64,000 nucleotides of DNA. Source: Kitasatospora sp. DSM 101779. Its GTDB lineage: Bacteria; Actinomycetota; Actinomycetes; Streptomycetales; Streptomycetaceae. Below the pieces are notes generated by a model. The model was not told the origin of the DNA, did no database searches, and worked only from the letters and a program-made list of their open reading frames with translations. The position numbers were made by a program, and so were the translations under genes. How positions within the stretch are numbered: the stretch's first letter is position 1; each line of letters opens with the position of its first letter. Of this stretch, positions 47,111-59,030 are shown piece by piece. Location of the stretch: the NCBI RefSeq assembly GCF_025655475.1, contig NZ_JAHTIK010000001.1, forward strand, positions 3,069,457 through 3,133,456. Reading direction: 5' to 3'.

Positions 47111-48313
47111 CTACCAGGCAGTCCAGGGCACGTTCCACCCGCTCAGGCCGTTCTCGCCGGAGACCTGCGGGCCCTTGGAATTCACCACGGTGACGACGTC
47201 GCCGATCATTGACGCGTTGTAGAAGCGGCCGGCGTCGGTGCCGTCGCTGCCGTAGCGGGTGTCGGCGATGCCGATGCAGCCGTGGCTGGCGTTGGCCCGG
47301 CCCATCGAGCCGATCGCCCAGGAGTTGCCGTGCACGTAGGTGCCGGTGTCGGTCAGCCGCATGGCGTGCGGCACGTCGTCCAGGTCGTACTCGTCGCCGG
47401 CCCGGATGCCGCTGACGCCGTTGGAGGACATCCGCGTCTTGCGGGCCATCTCCTCGATGACCATCGCGCCGTTGAAGCTGTCGAAACCGGCCTTGCCGGC
47501 GGTGAACTTCACGGTGTCCACGGTCTGCCCGTTCTCCACCACGGTCATCCGGTGGGTGGCGACGTCCGCCGTGCTCACCCGGGAGCGGCCGATGGTGACG
47601 TGGTCCTCGCCGTCGGTGTCGCCGTACACGCCGGGGGCCAGCTCGGCGCTCTTCAACCGGTACCTCACCGTCACCTTGGTGCCCGGCTTCCAGTACTCCG
47701 CCGGGCGGAAGTCGACCCGGTCGTCGCCGAACCAGTGCGGCTTCACCGCGGTGCCGTCGGAGGTCTCGAAGACCACCGCCCGCTCCGCCTCGGCGCGGTT
47801 CTGCACCGCCTTGCGGAAGCGCAGCGACACGATCATGCCGACGCCGTAGGTCTGCCCGTCGTCGACGTTGACGTAGGAGCCGTTCTTCTTGGCCGGGGTG
47901 AGCGTGGTGAAGCCGCTCTCCGCGGTCGTCACGAGGCCGTTCGGATCGGTGGCCCGTGCCGTCACCGTGTACTGCTCGGAGACGGCGAGCGCGGCGGCGG
48001 GCGTCCAGCTGAGGCCGTCGGCGGCGAGCGCACCGGTCACCTCCCGGCCGTCCTTGCCGGTGACCTTGACGGCGGTCAGCTTCCCTCCGGTCGCGGTGAC
48101 CTTGAGCGCCCCGGACGGCTTGACGTCGGTGGCGCCGCTCTTCGGCTCGATGGCCACGACCGCGGCCGGGACGGTGGGCCGCGGCCGGGCGGCCGTCGTC
48201 CCCGCGGCGGACGCCGCACCTCCCGGCGACCCGGACGGACCGCAGGCCGCGGCCGTCAGTACCAGTGCTCCCCCGAGCAGCCCCGCCGTCAGACCTCTGC
48301 GCACCGACCCCAT
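47111..48313 (-). CDS. L,D-transpeptidase lipoprotein 1
   Basis: A 400-residue surface enzyme expected to make 3-3 cross-links in peptidoglycan. It has a signal peptide with lipobox TAAAC, two Ig-like domains (~50-145 and ~150-240) and a YkuD catalytic domain with the HGN...SHGC motif: H328, H344 and nucleophile C346. The C-terminal end is GLSGWNVPWTAW, conserved in the two neighbours. ATG 48313 follows GGAGGGG. It is the last of three tandem paralogues on the minus strand. The overall layout equals the actinobacterial class B LdtMt2-like enzymes, which resist most penicillins but not carbapenems. Confidence 0.92.
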   Translation of the reverse strand: MGSVRRGLTAGLLGGALVLTAAACGPSGSPGGAASAAGTTAARPRPTVPAAVVAIEPKSGATDVKPSGALKVTATGGKLTAVKVTGKDGREVTGALAADGLSWTPAAALAVSEQYTVTARATDPNGLVTTAESGFTTLTPAKKNGSYVNVDDGQTYGVGMIVSLRFRKAVQNRAEAERAVVFETSDGTAVKPHWFGDDRVDFRPAEYWKPGTKVTVRYRLKSAELAPGVYGDTDGEDHVTIGRSRVSTADVATHRMTVVENGQTVDTVKFTAGKAGFDSFNGAMVIEEMARKTRMSSNGVSGIRAGDEYDLDDVPHAMRLTDTGTYVHGNSWAIGSMGRANASHGCIGIADTRYGSDGTDAGRFYNASMIGDVVTVVNSKGPQVSGENGLSGWNVPWTAW

Positions 48314-48430
48314 TGCCGGCCCCCCCTCCGAACCTGCCGCGCGCTCCCCGGCGCGGTACCCACCGAATACACGCTCCGAGCGGGGCCGGGGTTGCGGCCC
48401 GCAGCGCGACGATCCGGTCACGAACCTGCA

Positions 48431-48465
48431 ACGGCCCGGCCGCTCACGGGGAGCGGCCGGGCCGT
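48431..48465 (-). terminator. Terminator after L,D-transpeptidase 2
   Basis: A perfect 15-bp stem (48431-48445 with 48451-48465, loop ACGGG) lies 38 bases beyond the second transpeptidase gene, so transpeptidase 1 is probably transcribed separately. Confidence 0.8.
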
Positions 48466-48502
48466 CGCGGGAACCGCCGGGCGCCGGGCAGTGGGGTGCG
48501 GC

Positions 48503-49792
48503 CTACCAGTTGCTCCAGGGGAGCGTCCAGCCGCTGAGGCCGTTGTCCGGGGAGACCGTGCGGCCCTTGGCGTTGACGATCTTCACCACGTCGCCGACCA
48601 GCGAGCTGTTGAAGAAGGTGCCGGCCGAGGAGGACTCGCTGCCGCCCCTGACGTCCTTCAGGCCGATGCAGCCGTGGCTGGCGTTCGACTTGCCGAAGGC
48701 GTTGCCCCAGTAGTTGCCGTGCACGTAGGTGCCCGTGGTGGTGAGGCGCATCGCGTGCGGCACGTCCGGGACGTCGTACTCGTCGCCCTTGACGTTGGCC
48801 ACGGTGGCCGAGTTCATCCGGGTCACCTTCTCCTTGCTGGAGATGACCATGGTGCCGTTCCAGGACGGGTTCTGGTCGTTGCCCGCGGTGATCGGGATGC
48901 TCTTGGTGGCGCCGCCGCCGTTCGCCACCGTCATCATGTGCTTGGCCGCGTCGACGGTGCTGACCTGGTAGCGGCCGATGGTGAACGGCTCGTCGCGGTC
49001 CACGTCGCCGTAGACGCCCGGGGAGACCTCGACGCTCTTCAGCCGGTACTTGACGGTCACCTTGGTGCCGGGCTTCCAGTACTCCGCCGGGCGGAAGTCC
49101 AGTCGCTGCGCGCCGAACCAGTGGCCCTTCACGGTGGTGCCGTCGCTGGCCTCGACGGTGATGCCGTTGACGACGGCGTCCTTGTTCTTGACCGGCTTGC
49201 TGAACGCCACCGAGACGATCATGCCGACGCCGTAGGTGCCGTTGTCGGCGATGTTGTCGTTGGTCGCGACCTTCTTCGCCGGGGTCAGCGTGGTGAAGCC
49301 GGAGGAGATCGCGGCGGGCAGGCCGGCGTCGTCCTTGGCCTGCGCGTTGACGGTGTAGGCCATGCCGACCGCGAGCGGCGCGCTCGGCTTCCAGCTGAGG
49401 CCGTCGGTGGCGATGGTGCCGGCGACCGCCTTGTCGTTCTTGTCCTTCACCTCGACGGAGGTGAGCTTGCCGCTCGCCACCGTCACGGTCAGGCCGTTCG
49501 GCTGGACGTCGGTGGCGCCGTCCTTGGCGCTGACGGTGAGCACCGCGGCGGACGCCTTGGGGGCGGCCTGCGTGGTGGAGCCGCCACCTCCGCCGCCCGT
49601 GCCGGCCGCGTTCGCGCTCGCCCCGCCCGAACCCCCGGAGCCGCCCGAGCCGCCGTCGTTGCAGGCGGCGGTGAACAGCAGCACGCCGCCCATGGCCAGC
49701 GCGACGGCCGCGGTGCGGGCGGTACGACCGGTGCGGCCGGCGCCGGCCGCACCTCTGACTATCGCGGCCTCGGCCGCCTGAACCGGCTTCAC
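48503..49792 (-). CDS. L,D-transpeptidase lipoprotein 2
   Basis: A 429-residue paralogue of the neighbouring transpeptidases. A long basic N-tail precedes the signal segment and lipobox FTAAC; a Gly/Ser-rich linker of ~40 residues follows, probably spanning the wall. The Ig-like domains and YkuD domain follow, with H358, H373 and the catalytic C375 in ASHGCIGL. The end is GLSGWTLPWSNW. Start is GTG 49792, nine bases behind GGAG. It is the closest relative of transpeptidase 1 by eye (long shared stretches such as DFRPAEYWKPGTKVTV). Confidence 0.92.
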   Translation of the reverse strand: MKPVQAAEAAIVRGAAGAGRTGRTARTAAVALAMGGVLLFTAACNDGGSGGSGGSGGASANAAGTGGGGGGSTTQAAPKASAAVLTVSAKDGATDVQPNGLTVTVASGKLTSVEVKDKNDKAVAGTIATDGLSWKPSAPLAVGMAYTVNAQAKDDAGLPAAISSGFTTLTPAKKVATNDNIADNGTYGVGMIVSVAFSKPVKNKDAVVNGITVEASDGTTVKGHWFGAQRLDFRPAEYWKPGTKVTVKYRLKSVEVSPGVYGDVDRDEPFTIGRYQVSTVDAAKHMMTVANGGGATKSIPITAGNDQNPSWNGTMVISSKEKVTRMNSATVANVKGDEYDVPDVPHAMRLTTTGTYVHGNYWGNAFGKSNASHGCIGLKDVRGGSESSSAGTFFNSSLVGDVVKIVNAKGRTVSPDNGLSGWTLPWSNW

Positions 49793-49988
49793 TCGGTTGC
49801 TCCCCTCCCGGTATCCACGCTGGATACACGCATCCACGCCCGGGTCGGTTTCACCGGGAGCCGGACGTCTTCCGCACGCCGTCGGCGCGGAACGGTCCCC
49901 GGTCCGCGCGGCACGCCAGGATAACCGCCGCAGATGAGTGAATCTTCCGCGGGTGGGGGGTGCCGGTTCGGTGAATCCCCGGCGCAGG

Positions 49989-51197
49989 TCAGCGCGGTGC
50001 GGCGCCCAGCGCACTGCCCTTCAGCCAGGCCGCCCAGGGCAGGTTCCAGCCGTTCAGGCCGTTGGACGGCTGGACGACCGCGCCGGTGTCACCGCGCACC
50101 TCCAGCACGTCGCCGACCAGGGTGTGCTCGAAGAACCAGCCGGCCGGCGAGTCCGCGTCGCCGCCCTGCCGATCGGCGATCCCGATGCAGCCGTGGCTGG
50201 TGTTGGCGGTGCCGAACACCTCGTCGTCGGCCCAGTAGTTGCCGTGCACGAAGGTGCCGGAGTCGGTCAGCCGCATCGCGTGCGGGACGTCCTTGATGTC
50301 GTACTCGTCGCCGAGGCCGACCGTCCGGGCGTTCATCCGGGTCTCCTCGAACTTCTCCGAGACGACCATGACGCCGCGGTAGGTGGGGTGCTGGGGGCCA
50401 CCCGCGGTGATCTTCAGGGTGCGCACCGGCGCCCCGTCCTCGCGCACCGTCAGCGTGCTGCTCGCCAGGTCGACGGTGGACACCCGAGCCCGGCCGACGG
50501 TGAACGCCACCTCCTTGGTCTGGGTGCCGAACTCGCCCGGCGCCAGCTCCACGTCCTTCAGCCGCAGGGTGACGGTCACCCGGGTGCCCGGCGCCCAGTA
50601 CGACTCGGGCCGGACGTCCAGCCGCCGGTTGCCGAACCAGTGCGCGGCGAGCGGCACCGGCGGGTCGGCGGCCACCTCGACGGCCCGCTCCGCCGCCGGA
50701 CGGTCCGCGACCGGCCGGGTGAACCGCAGCGAGACCGGCATCCCCACACCGACCAGGGCACCGTCCTCCGGGGTGACGAAGGCGGCCACGGTGTGCGCCG
50801 GACCGGCCGTCACGAAGGCGGAGTGGTGGTCGGCGCGCAGTCCGTCCGCGTCCTGGGCGACCGCGTCGACGGTGTACGGGGTGGCCGGGGTGAGCGGCTC
50901 CTCCGGGGTCCACCGGGTGCCGTCGGGAGCCGTCCGGCCGGGTACGGCCACCCCGCGGTCGTCCCGCAGCCGCACCGACAGCAGCCGCCCGTCGGCGACG
51001 GTCACGGACACCTCGGCGTCGGAGTGCACCTCCTGGGCGCCGTCCGCGGGCAGCACGGCGATCGCCGCGCGGGAGATCCGCGGCCGGCCGGCCGGTCCGC
51101 CGTCCCCGCCCGCGGCCGGTCCGCCGGTGCACCCCGCCGGCAGCGCGAGGAGCCCGGCGGCCGCCGCCACCGCCCAACGCCGTGCCACCGCGAGCAT
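49989..51197 (-). CDS. L,D-transpeptidase lipoprotein 3
   Basis: A 402-residue, more diverged paralogue. Signal peptide with lipobox LPAGC, short linker, two Ig-like domains and the YkuD domain with TSHGCIGI (C337). It keeps the typical end GLNGWNLPWAAW but adds LKGSALGAAPR behind it. Shared motifs with the other two are fewer and its codon choice shows more Arg/Asp in loops, so the duplication is older. ATG 51197 follows AAGGGG. It is divergent from glgX, with 247 bases between the two start codons. Confidence 0.92.
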   Translation of the reverse strand: MLAVARRWAVAAAAGLLALPAGCTGGPAAGGDGGPAGRPRISRAAIAVLPADGAQEVHSDAEVSVTVADGRLLSVRLRDDRGVAVPGRTAPDGTRWTPEEPLTPATPYTVDAVAQDADGLRADHHSAFVTAGPAHTVAAFVTPEDGALVGVGMPVSLRFTRPVADRPAAERAVEVAADPPVPLAAHWFGNRRLDVRPESYWAPGTRVTVTLRLKDVELAPGEFGTQTKEVAFTVGRARVSTVDLASSTLTVREDGAPVRTLKITAGGPQHPTYRGVMVVSEKFEETRMNARTVGLGDEYDIKDVPHAMRLTDSGTFVHGNYWADDEVFGTANTSHGCIGIADRQGGDADSPAGWFFEHTLVGDVLEVRGDTGAVVQPSNGLNGWNLPWAAWLKGSALGAAPR

Positions 51198-51444: not shown

Positions 51445-53691
<2,247 letters not shown>

Positions 53692-53725
53692 CCGCGGACC
53701 GGCCCGGGCGGTCGGGCCCCGTGGC

Positions 53726-55147
53726 TCAGCCGAGCGGCCGGTTGACCTCGACGTTCTCCAGCAGCCCGAGCGCGTCGGGGACGAGCACGGCGGCCGAGTA
53801 GTAGGTGCTGACCAGGTAGGAGATGACGGCCTTGTCGTCGATGCCCATGAAGCGGACGTTGAGGCCGGGCTCGTACTCGTCGGGCAGGCCGGTCTGGTTG
53901 AGGCCGATCACGCCCTGCTCCGCCTCGCCGACGCGCATCGCGACGATCGAGGTGGTGTGGCCGCCGGTGACGGGGATCTTGCCGCAGGGCAGGATCGGCA
54001 CGCCGCGCCAGGCCGGCAGGTGGTGGCCGCCGACCTCGACGGTGCCGAAGTACAGGCCGCGCCGGTTGCACTCGCGGCCGAACGCGGCGATCGCCCGCGG
54101 GTGGGCGAACAGGTGGGTGGTCTGCCGCCGCATGCTGAGCAGCTCGTCCAGGTCGTCCGGGGTGGGCGGCCCGGAGTGGGTCTGGATCCGCTGGTCGTAG
54201 TCGGCGTTGCTGAGCAGCCCGAACTCCGGGTTGTTGACCAGCTCGTGCTCCTGGCGCTCGCGCAGGGCCTCGATGGTCAGCCGCAGCTGCTGCTCGGTCT
54301 GGTTCATCGGCTTGTTGTAGAGGTCGGCGACCCGGGAGTGCACCCGCAGCACCGTCTGCGCGACGCTCAGCTCGTACTCGCGCGGGGCGAGTTCGTAGTC
54401 GACGAAGGTGGCCGGCAGCTCGTGCTCGCCGGTGTGGCCGGCGGACATCTCGATCGCGGCCTCGCCGTGGCTGTTCTGCGGCCGGTGCCCGTTGCCGGAG
54501 AGGCCCTGGACGTGGTCGCGCAGCTGCTGGTACTCCGCGGCGACCAGCTGGTACGCCTGGTGGGGCAGGGCCAGCACGGTGACCGCGGTCGCCGCCTTGG
54601 CGGTGAAGTCCCAGTCTCCGTCGAGCCCGCCGAGCACGTGGCCGCCGAAGGACGCGCCGTCGGCCAGCACGCCGAGGACGGTCTCCTCGCCGTACTTGCC
54701 GGCGCCGATCTGCTCCACCTTGCCGTGCGCGATCAGGTAGACGTGGTCGGCCGGGCGGCCGCGCTCGACGATCACCTGGCCGGGCTCGAACTCCTGCTGG
54801 ACGAAGCGGCCGGCGAGGGCGCCGAGCGCCAGCGGCTCGTCGAAGCCGCGCAGCAGCGGCAGCTCGCCGAGCTCCGCGGGGACGACCTGGACCCGGGAAC
54901 CGGTCTTCACGAAGGTCAGCCGGCCGTCGCCGACGGCGTAGCTCAGCCGCCGGTTGACCCGGTAGGTGCCGCCGGACACCCGGACCCACGGCAGTGCCTT
55001 GAGCAGCCACCGCGAGCTGATCTCCTGCATCTGCGGTTGCGACTTGGTGGTGGTGGCGAGGTTGCGCGCCGCCGCCGTGCTGAGGCTGAGCTGGATCCGG
55101 TCCTGTGCGCCGGCCGGCTGCGGCGCGGGCTGTGTCTCGACCGTCAT
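53726..55147 (-). CDS. Family 2B encapsulin shell protein with cNMP-binding-like insert
   Basis: A 473-residue protein that I recognise as a family 2 encapsulin (SrpI-like HK97-fold shell), subtype 2B. The N-arm (1-40, [21 protein letters not shown]) and the E-loop strands [11 protein letters not shown] precede a cyclic-nucleotide-binding-like domain inserted at ~95-215 ([24 protein letters not shown]). The shell fold resumes with [48 protein letters not shown], then the P- and A-domain segments ending [11 protein letters not shown] 55147 follows GAGAGGTG. Known 2B cargos (terpene cyclases, polyprenyl transferases, xylulokinase-like or desulfurase proteins) are not adjacent. In the insert the canonical Glu and Arg of the phosphate-binding cassette are replaced. 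Confidence 0.88.
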
Positions 55148-55252
55148 GGGACACCTCTCGAACGTCGTGGGAGGCCGCCATGGCAGGTCGGCGGCCACTC
55201 TCCGCACACGGATCACATCGCACGGCCGCACCCGGACGGCCGAGGCGCGCGC

Positions 55253-55304: not shown

Positions 55305-55404
55305 TCCTGCGCTGCGCGCGACCTCGGACGGTCCGGCCGGAACCCGACGTCAGGTGCGAAAAACCGGATGAGAAATGACCGGGCAACGCCTACCCTCGGC
55401 CGCG

Positions 55405-57201
55405 ATGTCCACGAACCAAGCCCCCGACGGCCCCCGACGGTCCACCGTGCGCTCGCTGCTGCGCCTGTGGCCGTACGCCCGGGTCGCCCGATGGCGGATC
55501 GCCGGCTCGGTCGCCGCCGCGCTCACCGCCTCCGTCAGCGTGCTCGCCGTGCCGGTGGTGCTCCGCCGGATCGTCGACGGCCCGATCGCCGACCACGACA
55601 TGGCCGCGCTCTGGCCGCTCGCCGGCCTGCTCCTGCTGCTCGGCCTCGCCGAGGCGGGCCTGTTCGGGGTGCGCCGGGTGGTCGTGGCCCGCCCGCTGGC
55701 CCGGGTCGAGGCCGCCATGCGCGGCGACCTGTACGCCAAGCTGCAGCGGCTGCCGGTCTCCTTCCACGACCGGTGGCCCTCCGGTCAGTTGCTCAGCCGG
55801 GCCACCTCCGACATGTTCACCATGCGGCTGTTCCTGGCCTTCCCGCTGGTCTTCCTGATCGTCAACTGCACGGTCTTCCTCGTCGGCACCGGCCTGATGT
55901 TCACCCTGGACTGGCGGCTCGCGCTGATCGCGCTGATCCCGATGGGTCCGCTGACCTGGCTGACGCACCACTTCGAGCAGCGGTACTCCGGTGCCGCCCG
56001 CCGGGCGCAGGACCAGAACGGCGACCTCGCCACGGTGGTCGAGGAGTCGGTGCTCGGCATCCGCATCCTCAAGGCCTTCGGCCGGCACCGCACCATGGCC
56101 GAGCGCTTCGCCGAGCAGTCCCGCTCGCTGCGCGAGACCGAGCTCGGCAAGGCGGGGATGCTGGCCAACCTCTGGGCGGTCATCGTCGGCCTGCCGGAGC
56201 TCGCGCTCGGCGCGGCCCTGGCGCTCGGCGCCGTCCTGGTCGCCCACGACGAGATGTCGGCGGGCACCCTGGTGGCCTTCCTCTCCACCGCGCTGGCCCT
56301 GCGCTGGCCGGTCGAGTCGCTGGGCTGGCTGGTCGCGTACGCCAACGAGGCCGCCACCGCCACCGACCGCTTCTACGAGGTGATGGACGAGCCCGAGCCC
56401 GCCGACACCGGGCAGGACGGGCCCGGCCCCGCCGACGGCGAGCGGGGCATCCGGCTGTCCGGGGTGCGCTTCCGCTACCCGGACGCCCCCGCGGACAGCC
56501 CCGACCTGCTGTGCGGCATCGACCTGCACGTCCGGCCCGGCGAGACGATGGCCCTGGTCGGTGCGACCGGCAGCGGCAAGACCACCCTCACCGCCCTGCT
56601 GCCGCGGCTGTACGAGGCCACCGGCGGCACCGTCGCGCTGGACGGCCGGGACATCCGCACGATCCCCCGGGCCGAGCTGCGCGAACTGGTCGCCGTGGCC
56701 TTCGAGGAGCCGACGCTGTTCTCCGCCTCGGTCGCCGAGAACGTCCTGATGGGCGCACCGGCGGCAGGTCCCGACCGGCTGGCCGCCGCCCTCGACACCG
56801 CCCAGGCGGACTTCGTCGACCGGCTGCCGGCCGGCACCGCGACCCAGGTCGGCGAGCAGGGCCTCAGCCTCTCCGGCGGCCAGCGCCAGCGCCTCGCGCT
56901 CGCCCGCGCCGTCGTCGGCGACCCGCGCTTCCTGGTGCTGGACGACCCGCTCTCCGCCCTCGACGTGCACACCGAGGCGCTGGTCGAGCAGGCGCTGCGG
57001 CGCGTCCTCGACGGCACCACCGCGCTGGTCGTCGCGCACCGCCCGAGCACGGTCATGCTGGCCGACCGGGTGGCCGTGCTGCACGAGGGCAGGATCGCCG
57101 CCGTGGGCACCCACCACGAACTGCTGCAGAGCTCCGCCGTCTACCGGGAGCTGATGACGGGCGAGGCCGCCCCCGTACCGGAAGGGATCAGCACCCGATG
57201 A
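55405..57201 (+). CDS. ABC exporter half-transporter, subunit 1 (degenerate ATP site)
   Basis: A 598-residue type IV ABC exporter half: six membrane spans (~25-305) and a C-terminal ATPase. Walker A is GATGSGKTT and the signature [10 protein letters not shown] is intact, but Walker B reads [11 protein letters not shown], with Asp where the catalytic Glu should be. I use ATG 55405; TACCCT ends eight bases before it, which suggests a leaderless message. ATG 55375, ten codons earlier behind GGATGAG, is a serious alternative. The stop overlaps the ATG of subunit 2 (ATGA). Substrate unknown; the gene is divergent from the encapsulin gene. Confidence 0.92.
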
Positions 57202-59030
57202 GCACCACCGCGGTCGACGCCGCCGAGGAGCTGGCCGAGGAACTCCCGGCGCCCGCCGAGGACGAGGACATCCCCGTCCCCGCGGGCGCCGCCCGCCGGC
57301 TGCTCGGCGAACTGCTCGGCCCGCACCGCGGCCGGATCGCCCTGGCCATGCTGGTGATCCTCGTCCAGCAGGCCGCCCTGCAGACCGGGCCGCTGCTGGT
57401 GGCCTTCGCGATGGACCGCGGCATCCCGGCCCTGCGGGACCACGACAGCGGACCGCTGATCGCGGTGATCGCGGCCTACCTGGGCTGCGCCGCGCTCAGC
57501 ACCGTGCTGCAGCGCGCCTTCATCCGCTTCTCCGCCCGGATCAACCAGGACGTGCTGCTGGACCTGCGCGGCCGGATCTTCCGGCACGCCCAGCGGCTCA
57601 GCCTGGACTTCCACGAGCGCTACACCTCCGGCCGGATCATCTCCCGCGCCACCAGCGACGTGGACGCGTTGCGCGAACTGCTCGCCGAGGGCCTGCAGGA
57701 GCTGCTCTCGGTGGTCCTCTCGGTGTTCTGGATCTCGCTGGTCCTGATGGTGATGGACTGGCGGCTCGGCCTGCTGTCGCTGCTGTCCTTCCTGCCGATG
57801 TACCTGAGCATCCGCTCGTTCCGGCGGCGCTCGCAGCGGGTCTACCGGCGCTCGCGGACGGCGGTCGCCGCGGTGATCGTGCGCTTCACCGAGACCATGA
57901 ACGGCATCCGCCCGGTGCAGGCCTTCCGCCGCGAACGGGCCAACGACGAGGCCTTCGGCACGGTCAACCACCAGTACGCCGGCACCACCGCGGACGGCCT
58001 GCTGGAGATGGCCAGGTACGTCACCACCTCGCGGGCGATCGCCAACGTGTGGATCACCGGCGTGGTGGTGGCCGGCGCCCTGCTGGTCGCCGACGGCTCC
58101 GTCGAACTCGGCGTGCTCACCGCTTTCGTGCTCTACCTGCGCCGGCTGTACGAGCCGCTCGACCAGCTGGCGATGTTCCTGAACAGCTACCAGTCGGCGG
58201 CCGCCGCGCTGGAGAAGATCGCCGGCCTGCTGGCGCACGAGCCCTCGGTGCCCGAGCCGGCCGACCCCGCACCGCTGCCGGAGCACCCCGTGAAGGGCCG
58301 AACGGTCTCCTTCGACGGCGTTCGCTTCGCCTACCGGACGGGCAAGGAGGTGCTGCCCCGGTTCGACCTGGTGCTCCCGGCCGGGCGCACCACCGCGGTG
58401 GTCGGCGCGACCGGCGCCGGCAAGTCCACCCTGGCCAAGCTGCTCGCCCGGTTCTACGACCCGACCGACGGCCGGGTCGCGCTCGACGGCGTCGACCTGC
58501 GCGAGCTGTCCGGGGAGGAGCTGCGGCGCAACATCGTCATGGTCACCCAGGAGTCCTTCCTGTTCTCCGGCACGGTCGCCGAGAACATCGCGATCGGCCG
58601 ACCCGGCGCCACCCGCGAGGAGGTCGAGCAGGCCGCCCGGGACATCGGCGCGTACGACTTCGTCGCGGCCCTGCCGGAGGGCTTCGACACCGACGTCCGC
58701 AAGCGCGGCGGCCGGATCTCGGCCGGGCAGCGGCAGCTGGTGGCCTTCGCCCGGGCGCTGCTGGCCGACCCGGCGGTGCTGATCCTCGACGAGGCGACCA
58801 GTTCACTGGACGTGCCGGGGGAGCAGGCGGTGCAGCGGGCCATGCGGACGGTCCTGGCCGGCCGCACCGCGGTGGTCATCGCCCACCGCCTCTCCACGGT
58901 CGAGATCGCCGACCGGGTCCTGGTGATGGACCAGGGCAGGATCGTCGAGGACGGCCGCCCGGCCGACCTGATCGGCGGCCGCGGCCGCTTCGCCGACCTC
59001 CACCGCACCTGGCGCGACAGCCTGGTCTGA
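57198..59030 (+). CDS. ABC exporter half-transporter, subunit 2 (canonical Walker B)
   Basis: The 610-residue partner. An acidic N-tail of ~30 residues (EELAEELPAPAEDEDIP) leads into six spans and the ATPase. Walker A is GATGAGKST and Walker B LILDEATSSLD with catalytic Glu, but the signature is ISAGQ instead of LSGGQ. With subunit 1 this makes one full and one degenerate composite ATP site: subunit 1's Walker B Asp pairs with subunit 2's altered signature. That asymmetry is typical of heterodimeric exporters of lipids or drugs. Translation is coupled to subunit 1 through a four-base overlap. Confidence 0.93.
   Translation: MSTTAVDAAEELAEELPAPAEDEDIPVPAGAARRLLGELLGPHRGRIALAMLVILVQQAALQTGPLLVAFAMDRGIPALRDHDSGPLIAVIAAYLGCAALSTVLQRAFIRFSARINQDVLLDLRGRIFRHAQRLSLDFHERYTSGRIISRATSDVDALRELLAEGLQELLSVVLSVFWISLVLMVMDWRLGLLSLLSFLPMYLSIRSFRRRSQRVYRRSRTAVAAVIVRFTETMNGIRPVQAFRRERANDEAFGTVNHQYAGTTADGLLEMARYVTTSRAIANVWITGVVVAGALLVADGSVELGVLTAFVLYLRRLYEPLDQLAMFLNSYQSAAAALEKIAGLLAHEPSVPEPADPAPLPEHPVKGRTVSFDGVRFAYRTGKEVLPRFDLVLPAGRTTAVVGATGAGKSTLAKLLARFYDPTDGRVALDGVDLRELSGEELRRNIVMVTQESFLFSGTVAENIAIGRPGATREEVEQAARDIGAYDFVAALPEGFDTDVRKRGGRISAGQRQLVAFARALLADPAVLILDEATSSLDVPGEQAVQRAMRTVLAGRTAVVIAHRLSTVEIADRVLVMDQGRIVEDGRPADLIGGRGRFADLHRTWRDSLV

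Follow-up and report, generated by a model that had tools for sequence, protein, structure and literature searches.

What does an encapsulin shell enclose when no cargo gene stands beside it? Encapsulin cargo is mostly assigned by gene neighbourhood, and the shell gene considered here, in a 64,000-nucleotide stretch of the Kitasatospora sp. DSM 101779 genome (the window), was described in an initial annotation as an orphan family 2B encapsulin whose cargo is either encoded elsewhere or something new. We compared this locus with the other shells of the same genome and of the genus; the 70 genus genomes carry G-numbers (G000 is that of the window) and individual stretches carry L-numbers.

The window shell and its immediate neighbourhood

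The frame runs from ATG to stop with zero internal stops in translation (Table 1), and the Shine-Dalgarno-like sequence before its ATG is common to G030 and G039. The NCBIfam model of family 2B (NF041163, encap_f2b) matched the protein with 762.8 bits (cut-off, 400); the NCBIfam family 2A model reached 357.5 bits, below its cut-off of 380. Pfam SrpI-like (PF19307) covered residues 221-469 with 463 bits (cut-off, 22.8), and Pfam cNMP_binding (PF00027) covered residues 118-200 with 52 bits, this domain being an insert between the N-terminal shell part and PF19307. The layout consists of HK97 parts at about residues 21-92 and 225-470, with the CBD-like insert and its linker at about 95-215. These matches bear out the initial annotation, which had proposed a family 2B shell, HK97-like with a cyclic-nucleotide-binding-like insert. 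Judged by its sequence, the gene is a genuine family 2B shell and no new kind of system.

Table 1. Features at the shell locus, in window coordinates.
Feature	Position	Strand	Remark
glgX, convergent bystander	51445..53691	+	adjoins ABC genes in shell-less genus loci
spacer, stop codon to stop codon, shell/glgX, 34 bp	53692..53725	.	cassette site in G039
family 2B encapsulin shell protein, 473 aa	53726..55147	-	Pfam, NCBIfam and PDB matches; no stops
shell gene ribosome-binding region, GAGAGGTG	55148..55167	-	conserved (G030, G039)
ABC exporter subunit 1, divergent bystander	55375..57201	+	
ABC exporter subunit 2, bystander	57198..59030	+	

Comparison with PDB sequences returned the solved shells 9bhu (E 1.8e-197), 9bix, and 9bje. 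The closest, 9bhu (660 bits, residues 18-468), shares the HK97 and CBD build with the window shell; together with 9bhv and 9bi0 it represents what we take to be the 2-MIB-synthase family 2B encapsulin shell. The HK97 fold of the window shell was assigned by homology to 9bhu, and an AlphaFold model built from an alignment of 25 rows was poor (pLDDT 54) and set aside. The entries 9bix and 9bje (627 and 609 bits) are of the same family as the window shell, and we assigned them to the two-component pair of Streptomyces lydicus from the Enc1 and Enc2 motifs printed in PMC12407261. The CBD is reported there not to bind cyclic nucleotides in the 2B family.

According to the same paper, the S. lydicus two-component 2B shell forms mixed, irregularly tiled shells. 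The window shell might likewise co-assemble with one of the three other shells of its own genome, which are 66-67% identical to it, and have no cargo of its own. We regard this as unlikely. Unlike the S. lydicus system, the window has no second shell gene within 10 kb, the distance that PMC12407261 uses to recognize two-component operons; the other three own shells lie more than 0.8 Mb away. The diagnostic motif 1 of the window shell, MRRQ, is closer to the Enc2 form (RRRK) than to the Enc1 form (TVWK), and in the other three own shells it reads RRRD or RRRG by eye.

The initial annotation had also named the neighbours, glgX convergent and two ABC-exporter genes divergent, and its description of them is correct. 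References for terpene cyclase (TC), methyltransferase, and polyprenyl transferase (PT) were unmatched in the 20 kb around the shell, the nearest match of the cysteine desulfurase type (PF00266) was about 26 kb away, and none of the four matches of the xylulokinase type (FGGY) was at a shell; the reported lack of recognisable linked cargo was thus confirmed. The cysteine desulfurase in the window, which the annotation described as lacking a targeting extension, has 2 aa before its domain from a start with a ribosome-binding site. Among the best 5 of 18 PF00266 matches, such a start was seen in three, leaving 2, 32, and 36 aa before the domain, and the remaining two frames leave at most 5 and 68 aa. 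With no long extension in these five and no FGGY match at shells, we rejected cysteine desulfurase and xylulokinase as likely cargo.

In all 19 shell-less genus loci that were read as DNA, glgX and the two ABC genes adjoin each other. We therefore rejected both glgX and the exporter as candidates for cargo or partner; the shell module occupies a single spot between genes that stand there in its absence too. The 34-bp spacer was also folded as RNA, and the predicted hairpin was no better than those of shuffled sequences. Beside glgX, at window positions 47111-51197, are three tandem L,D-transpeptidase-like genes (named by eye) that are conserved in the genus.

A cyclase cassette at the same locus in relatives

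We read 84 stretches with reference proteins, 80 around genus shells and four from the window's own genome, and found the arrangement glgX-shell-ABC exporter in 16 of them. Across the 70 genus genomes, a shell occupies the glgX spot in 17, five with a cyclase and 12 without room for one. In this count, coordinates were compared by eye, DNA was read for all 17 loci that have a shell and for 19 that lack one, 34 were taken from coordinates, and weaker shells were listed for 29 of the 70 genomes. Eleven orphan stretches have a gap of 11-131 bp between the shell and glgX matches, and the twelfth orphan is L228 of G048. None of the 12 orphan shells contained a stop, among the shells listed.

With the same locus and flanks as the window, four genomes (G039, G008, G014, and G037; stretches L131, L165, L168, and L188) carry a cyclase and a C-methyltransferase between shell and glgX, whereas this cassette is absent from the window genome and 11 other genus genomes. 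In L140 of G040, the cyclase at this position lacks the canonical tag, and the methyltransferase is missing. After the orphan shell of G030 (97% identity), that of G039 is the next closest to the window shell (94%). In the 2.16-kb gap between the G039 shell and glgX, both cassette genes are open: a terpene cyclase matching NF041167 (f2_encap_cargo2) with 528.3 bits and a methyltransferase matching NF041943 (geranyl diphosphate 2-C-methyltransferase) with 526.8 bits, each against a cut-off of 400. The closest PDB matches of the cyclase are 4zq8 and 2-MIB synthase, and it bears the tag GPTGLGTAAAR. GPTGLGT motifs have been proposed as loading tags in PMC8346489, where a linked cyclase is the defining feature of terpene-cyclase systems; the window locus differs from these in having no linked cargo.

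The initial annotation had named a conventional cargo gene by the neighbourhood in relatives as something that would refute it, and the cargo pair at the same spot in G039 is such a case. Of the two contents that it offered, the new one finds no support, the G039 locus holding a standard tagged cyclase and methyltransferase, and none of the observations requires cargo of a novel type. The window locus illustrates that a linked neighbour can vanish while the shell stays conserved. An orphan shell alone is therefore not evidence of new cargo, and its cargo may have to be searched for genome-wide by tag.

Because relatives have ordinary cargo genes at this position, the orphan state is best read as a secondary loss. 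In a tree built from 88 shells, a clade of 22 rows (support 100/99) contains the window shell together with its 97% relative. Apart from these two, and from two rows in which the downstream sequence is cut off too early, nine clade members have a cyclase downstream, two have a methyltransferase only, and seven have neither in at least 5 kb of visible sequence. The reverse history, in which the locus began as an orphan and the cyclase and methyltransferase genes entered G039 afterwards, appears very unlikely. Presence of the cassette requires a minimum of two changes on the tree, which fits either direction, and two gains come at the same cost. However, a gained cassette would have had to land precisely in the gap between the shell and glgX stop codons. 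The G039 cyclase, moreover, is sister to the same-locus cyclases of G008, G014, and G037 (support 0.945), and a cyclase lies downstream in nine of the 18 other clade shells with enough downstream sequence (the window and its 97% relative excluded). The cyclase group of G039 is also near the Streptomyces cyclases of L010 and L013, which stand beside shells of the window's clade. An inherited cassette followed by loss would be simpler than two exact insertions. A single shared deletion in the window strain and G030 is likely and stays short of proof, as their stop-to-stop spacers differ (34 and 7 bp). We also rejected a move of the lost cyclase to another place in the own genome, as the G039 cyclase has no ortholog there and its best match (38%) is the own 2-MIB synthase.

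Evidence on a single origin of all glgX-locus shells was divided: p-AU was 0.126 and a FastTree of the C-terminal HK97 part was in favour (0.861), whereas whole-length trees were against. As a separate observation, the CBD insert and the HK97 part of glgX-locus shells (L144-L209 versus L008/L130/L131) gave discordant trees. In clades B and C, the CBD groups, weakly, with PT-type shells and the HK97 part with TC-type shells. This discordance suggests that the CBD module may have been exchanged.

Constraint on the orphan shells and possible loading in trans

Selection on the shell was estimated as dN/dS by the Nei-Gojobori method; the codons are very GC-rich, so we used only the comparison with neighbour genes. 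Between the two orphans, the window and G030, dN/dS was 0.141 for the shell, 0.128 for glgX, and 0.162 for ABC1, and about 16 of 53 changes in the shell were nonsynonymous against 73% expected (p 7e-11). Compared with G039, the window and G030 gave shell values of 0.189 and 0.226, glgX values of 0.170 and 0.210, and ABC1 values of 0.225 and 0.246. The window orphan shell is as constrained as its neighbour genes. The state shared by G000 and G030 suggests a loss before the two diverged, in which case the shell was kept without linked cargo.

The shell could instead be a functionless leftover whose persistence reflects no more than a recent loss of cargo; in favour of this, the cassette is missing altogether, and some other genus shells are split between two frames. 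Clade C, which comprises six orphans in the tree and G048 as placed there by us, points the same way: among these seven orphans, 19 of 21 pairs had a higher dN/dS for the shell (0.31-0.58) than for glgX (0.23-0.52), which means that constraint is weaker in clade C. However, clade C shells stay open at a shell dS of up to 0.295, and the value of 0.14 between the two orphans equals those of glgX and ABC1, so that we find a leftover quite unlikely. In clade B, where the calculation covered the shell, dN/dS was 0.43-0.83 with cargo-bearing pairs included.

The genome of the window strain encodes four family 2B shells, two with linked cargo and two orphan. The shell in L006 (C1:7505k) is followed by a cyclase and a geranyl diphosphate 2-C-methyltransferase; we call this cyclase 2-MIB synthase (2-MIBS), a name of our own, its family model being f2_encap_cargo2. 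Downstream of the shell in L007 (C1:4640k) lies a polyprenyl transferase (NF041169, 498.7 bits; cut-off, 450). The orphans are the window shell and that of L005 (C1:2247k), neither of which has known cargo adjacent. Matches to the terpene synthase family PF19086 numbered five in four genes: geosmin synthase with two domains, 2-MIBS, and two untagged proteins. Geosmin synthase carries the tags GPTGVGT and GPTGLGT, has no shell near it, and scored 1163 bits with NF041168 (f2_encap_cargo3), just under the cut-off of 1200. It is thus a tagged cargo-type enzyme without a shell of its own in the genome, as expected of a trans cargo. Searching the whole genome by cargo type returned 2-MIBS and the polyprenyl transferase beside own shells, and the tagged geosmin synthase away from any; the annotation's alternative of cargo encoded elsewhere gains a candidate in the last of these. 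A DNA pattern for GPxGxG-type tags matched seven times in the genome and 20 times in the reversed control, so that the motif is not enriched per se and its weight comes from its location in cyclases: three of the seven matches are in cyclases, two in geosmin synthase and one in 2-MIBS. One further match, GPSGLGS, is in frame inside a long non-cyclase ORF.

We consider it probable that the window shell is a TC-type 2B shell that was retained when its linked cassette was deleted, and that it may now load tagged cyclases in trans. In this view, the intact family 2B shell is in no way unusual for the terpene-cyclase type. A tagged 2-MIBS-like cyclase and a geranyl diphosphate 2-C-methyltransferase would have been lost by a deletion in the interval separating the shell gene from glgX, most likely in the common ancestor of the window strain and G030. 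The shell would still self-assemble, and GPxGLGT-tagged cyclases encoded elsewhere, geosmin synthase or 2-MIBS, would be its trans cargo. A shell of its own adjoins 2-MIBS both in the window genome and in G030, which leaves only geosmin synthase free. A precedent for the unlinking of shell and cargo is BfrB of Mycobacterium tuberculosis, mentioned in PMC8346489 as a proposed family 1 encapsulin cargo outside the operon; that case differs from the window in family, tag, and enzymes. If trans loading is true, this genome, with its four shells and two cyclases bearing three tags between them, would be a testable model for shell-cargo specificity.

The window shell might instead hold unlinked cargo without the GPxGLGT tag, for example a polyprenyl transferase or some other protein: PT cargo has no recognised tag motif according to PMC8346489, so that cargo can escape a motif search. 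In the own genome, an unlinked polyprenyl synthase at C1:6472k (L126) scored 348 bits with NF041169 on an incomplete piece, the cut-off of 450 applying to the whole protein, and C1:294k (L129) scored 201.9 bits. Against such cargo, the window shell groups with shells of the terpene-cyclase type and its lost neighbour was a tagged cyclase, which makes this distinctly unlikely.

The distribution of 2-MIBS in the genus bears on loading in trans. It was found (at least 79% identity) in 52 of the 70 genomes, with a shell beside it, on coordinates compared by eye, in nine (G000, G013, G015, G017, G022, G030, G035, G055, and G067). We chose 20 2-MIBS regions for having no listed shell nearby, mostly with 5 kb on each side (L248 begins at a contig end); these stretches contained no shell, and the tag was kept in all 19 that were readable. 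2-MIBS was present in 11 of 12 orphan-locus genomes, the exception being G046, and in one of five cargo-bearing ones (Fisher p 0.0099, kinship uncorrected). Retention of the tag does not single out orphan shells, as it is also kept in G058, which has a single shell of the PT type.

Tag-only ORFs and a second orphan locus

At a second genus locus, found in 10 of the 84 stretches, the gene after the shell is O-methyltransferase-like (a name given by eye; "c42"). Erosion of cargo is seen here as well. In L135, a cyclase remnant about 320-850 bp downstream of the shell is without most of the core and has kept the tag GPTGIGT; four stretches have a methyltransferase only, and two have no cyclase, methyltransferase, or tag.

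In L133, L134, and L137 (G054, G050, and G061), an ORF of 103-115 aa, preceded by AAGGAGA, lies directly downstream of a cargo-less shell; it carries two GPTGLG tags but encodes no enzyme. Pairwise pN/pS across these three short sequences was 0.10-0.18 in the tags and 0.51-0.71 elsewhere. The ORF had no Pfam match. A profile built from it was strong in these three of 394 family genomes and gave five weak matches (E 7e-5 to 6e-4) in others; the window's genome had no match. A comparable ORF, with tags but no cyclase, occurs in Streptomyces DH12 (L022).

A wider reading, possible though decidedly tentative, is that shells of the genus have repeatedly been stripped of the linked cyclase, were kept by selection, and would serve a trans pool of tagged cyclases (2-MIBS and geosmin synthase), some of them with a stand-alone, enzyme-less protein with two tags as a new kind of partner, be it plug, competitor, or adaptor.

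Our literature search found no publication on an encapsulin with DUF4239, on Kitasatospora encapsulin cargo, or on encapsulin targeting peptides in connection with gene loss. DUF4239 is of note at the other own orphan shell, in L005 (9110-12628), which has a Bestrophin-like gene (PF14023, DUF4239) downstream. The same pairing of shell and downstream PF14023 gene recurs in 12 more genus stretches (13 of 84). A Pro-rich, signal-peptide-like ORF between the two is clear in 10 of the 13 and partial in one more, and DUF4239-type genes also occur near other 2B shells. Two shell genes elsewhere in the genus, G009:C1:5576084-5577474 and G012:C1:140486-141641, are in two pieces in different frames and have probably decayed.
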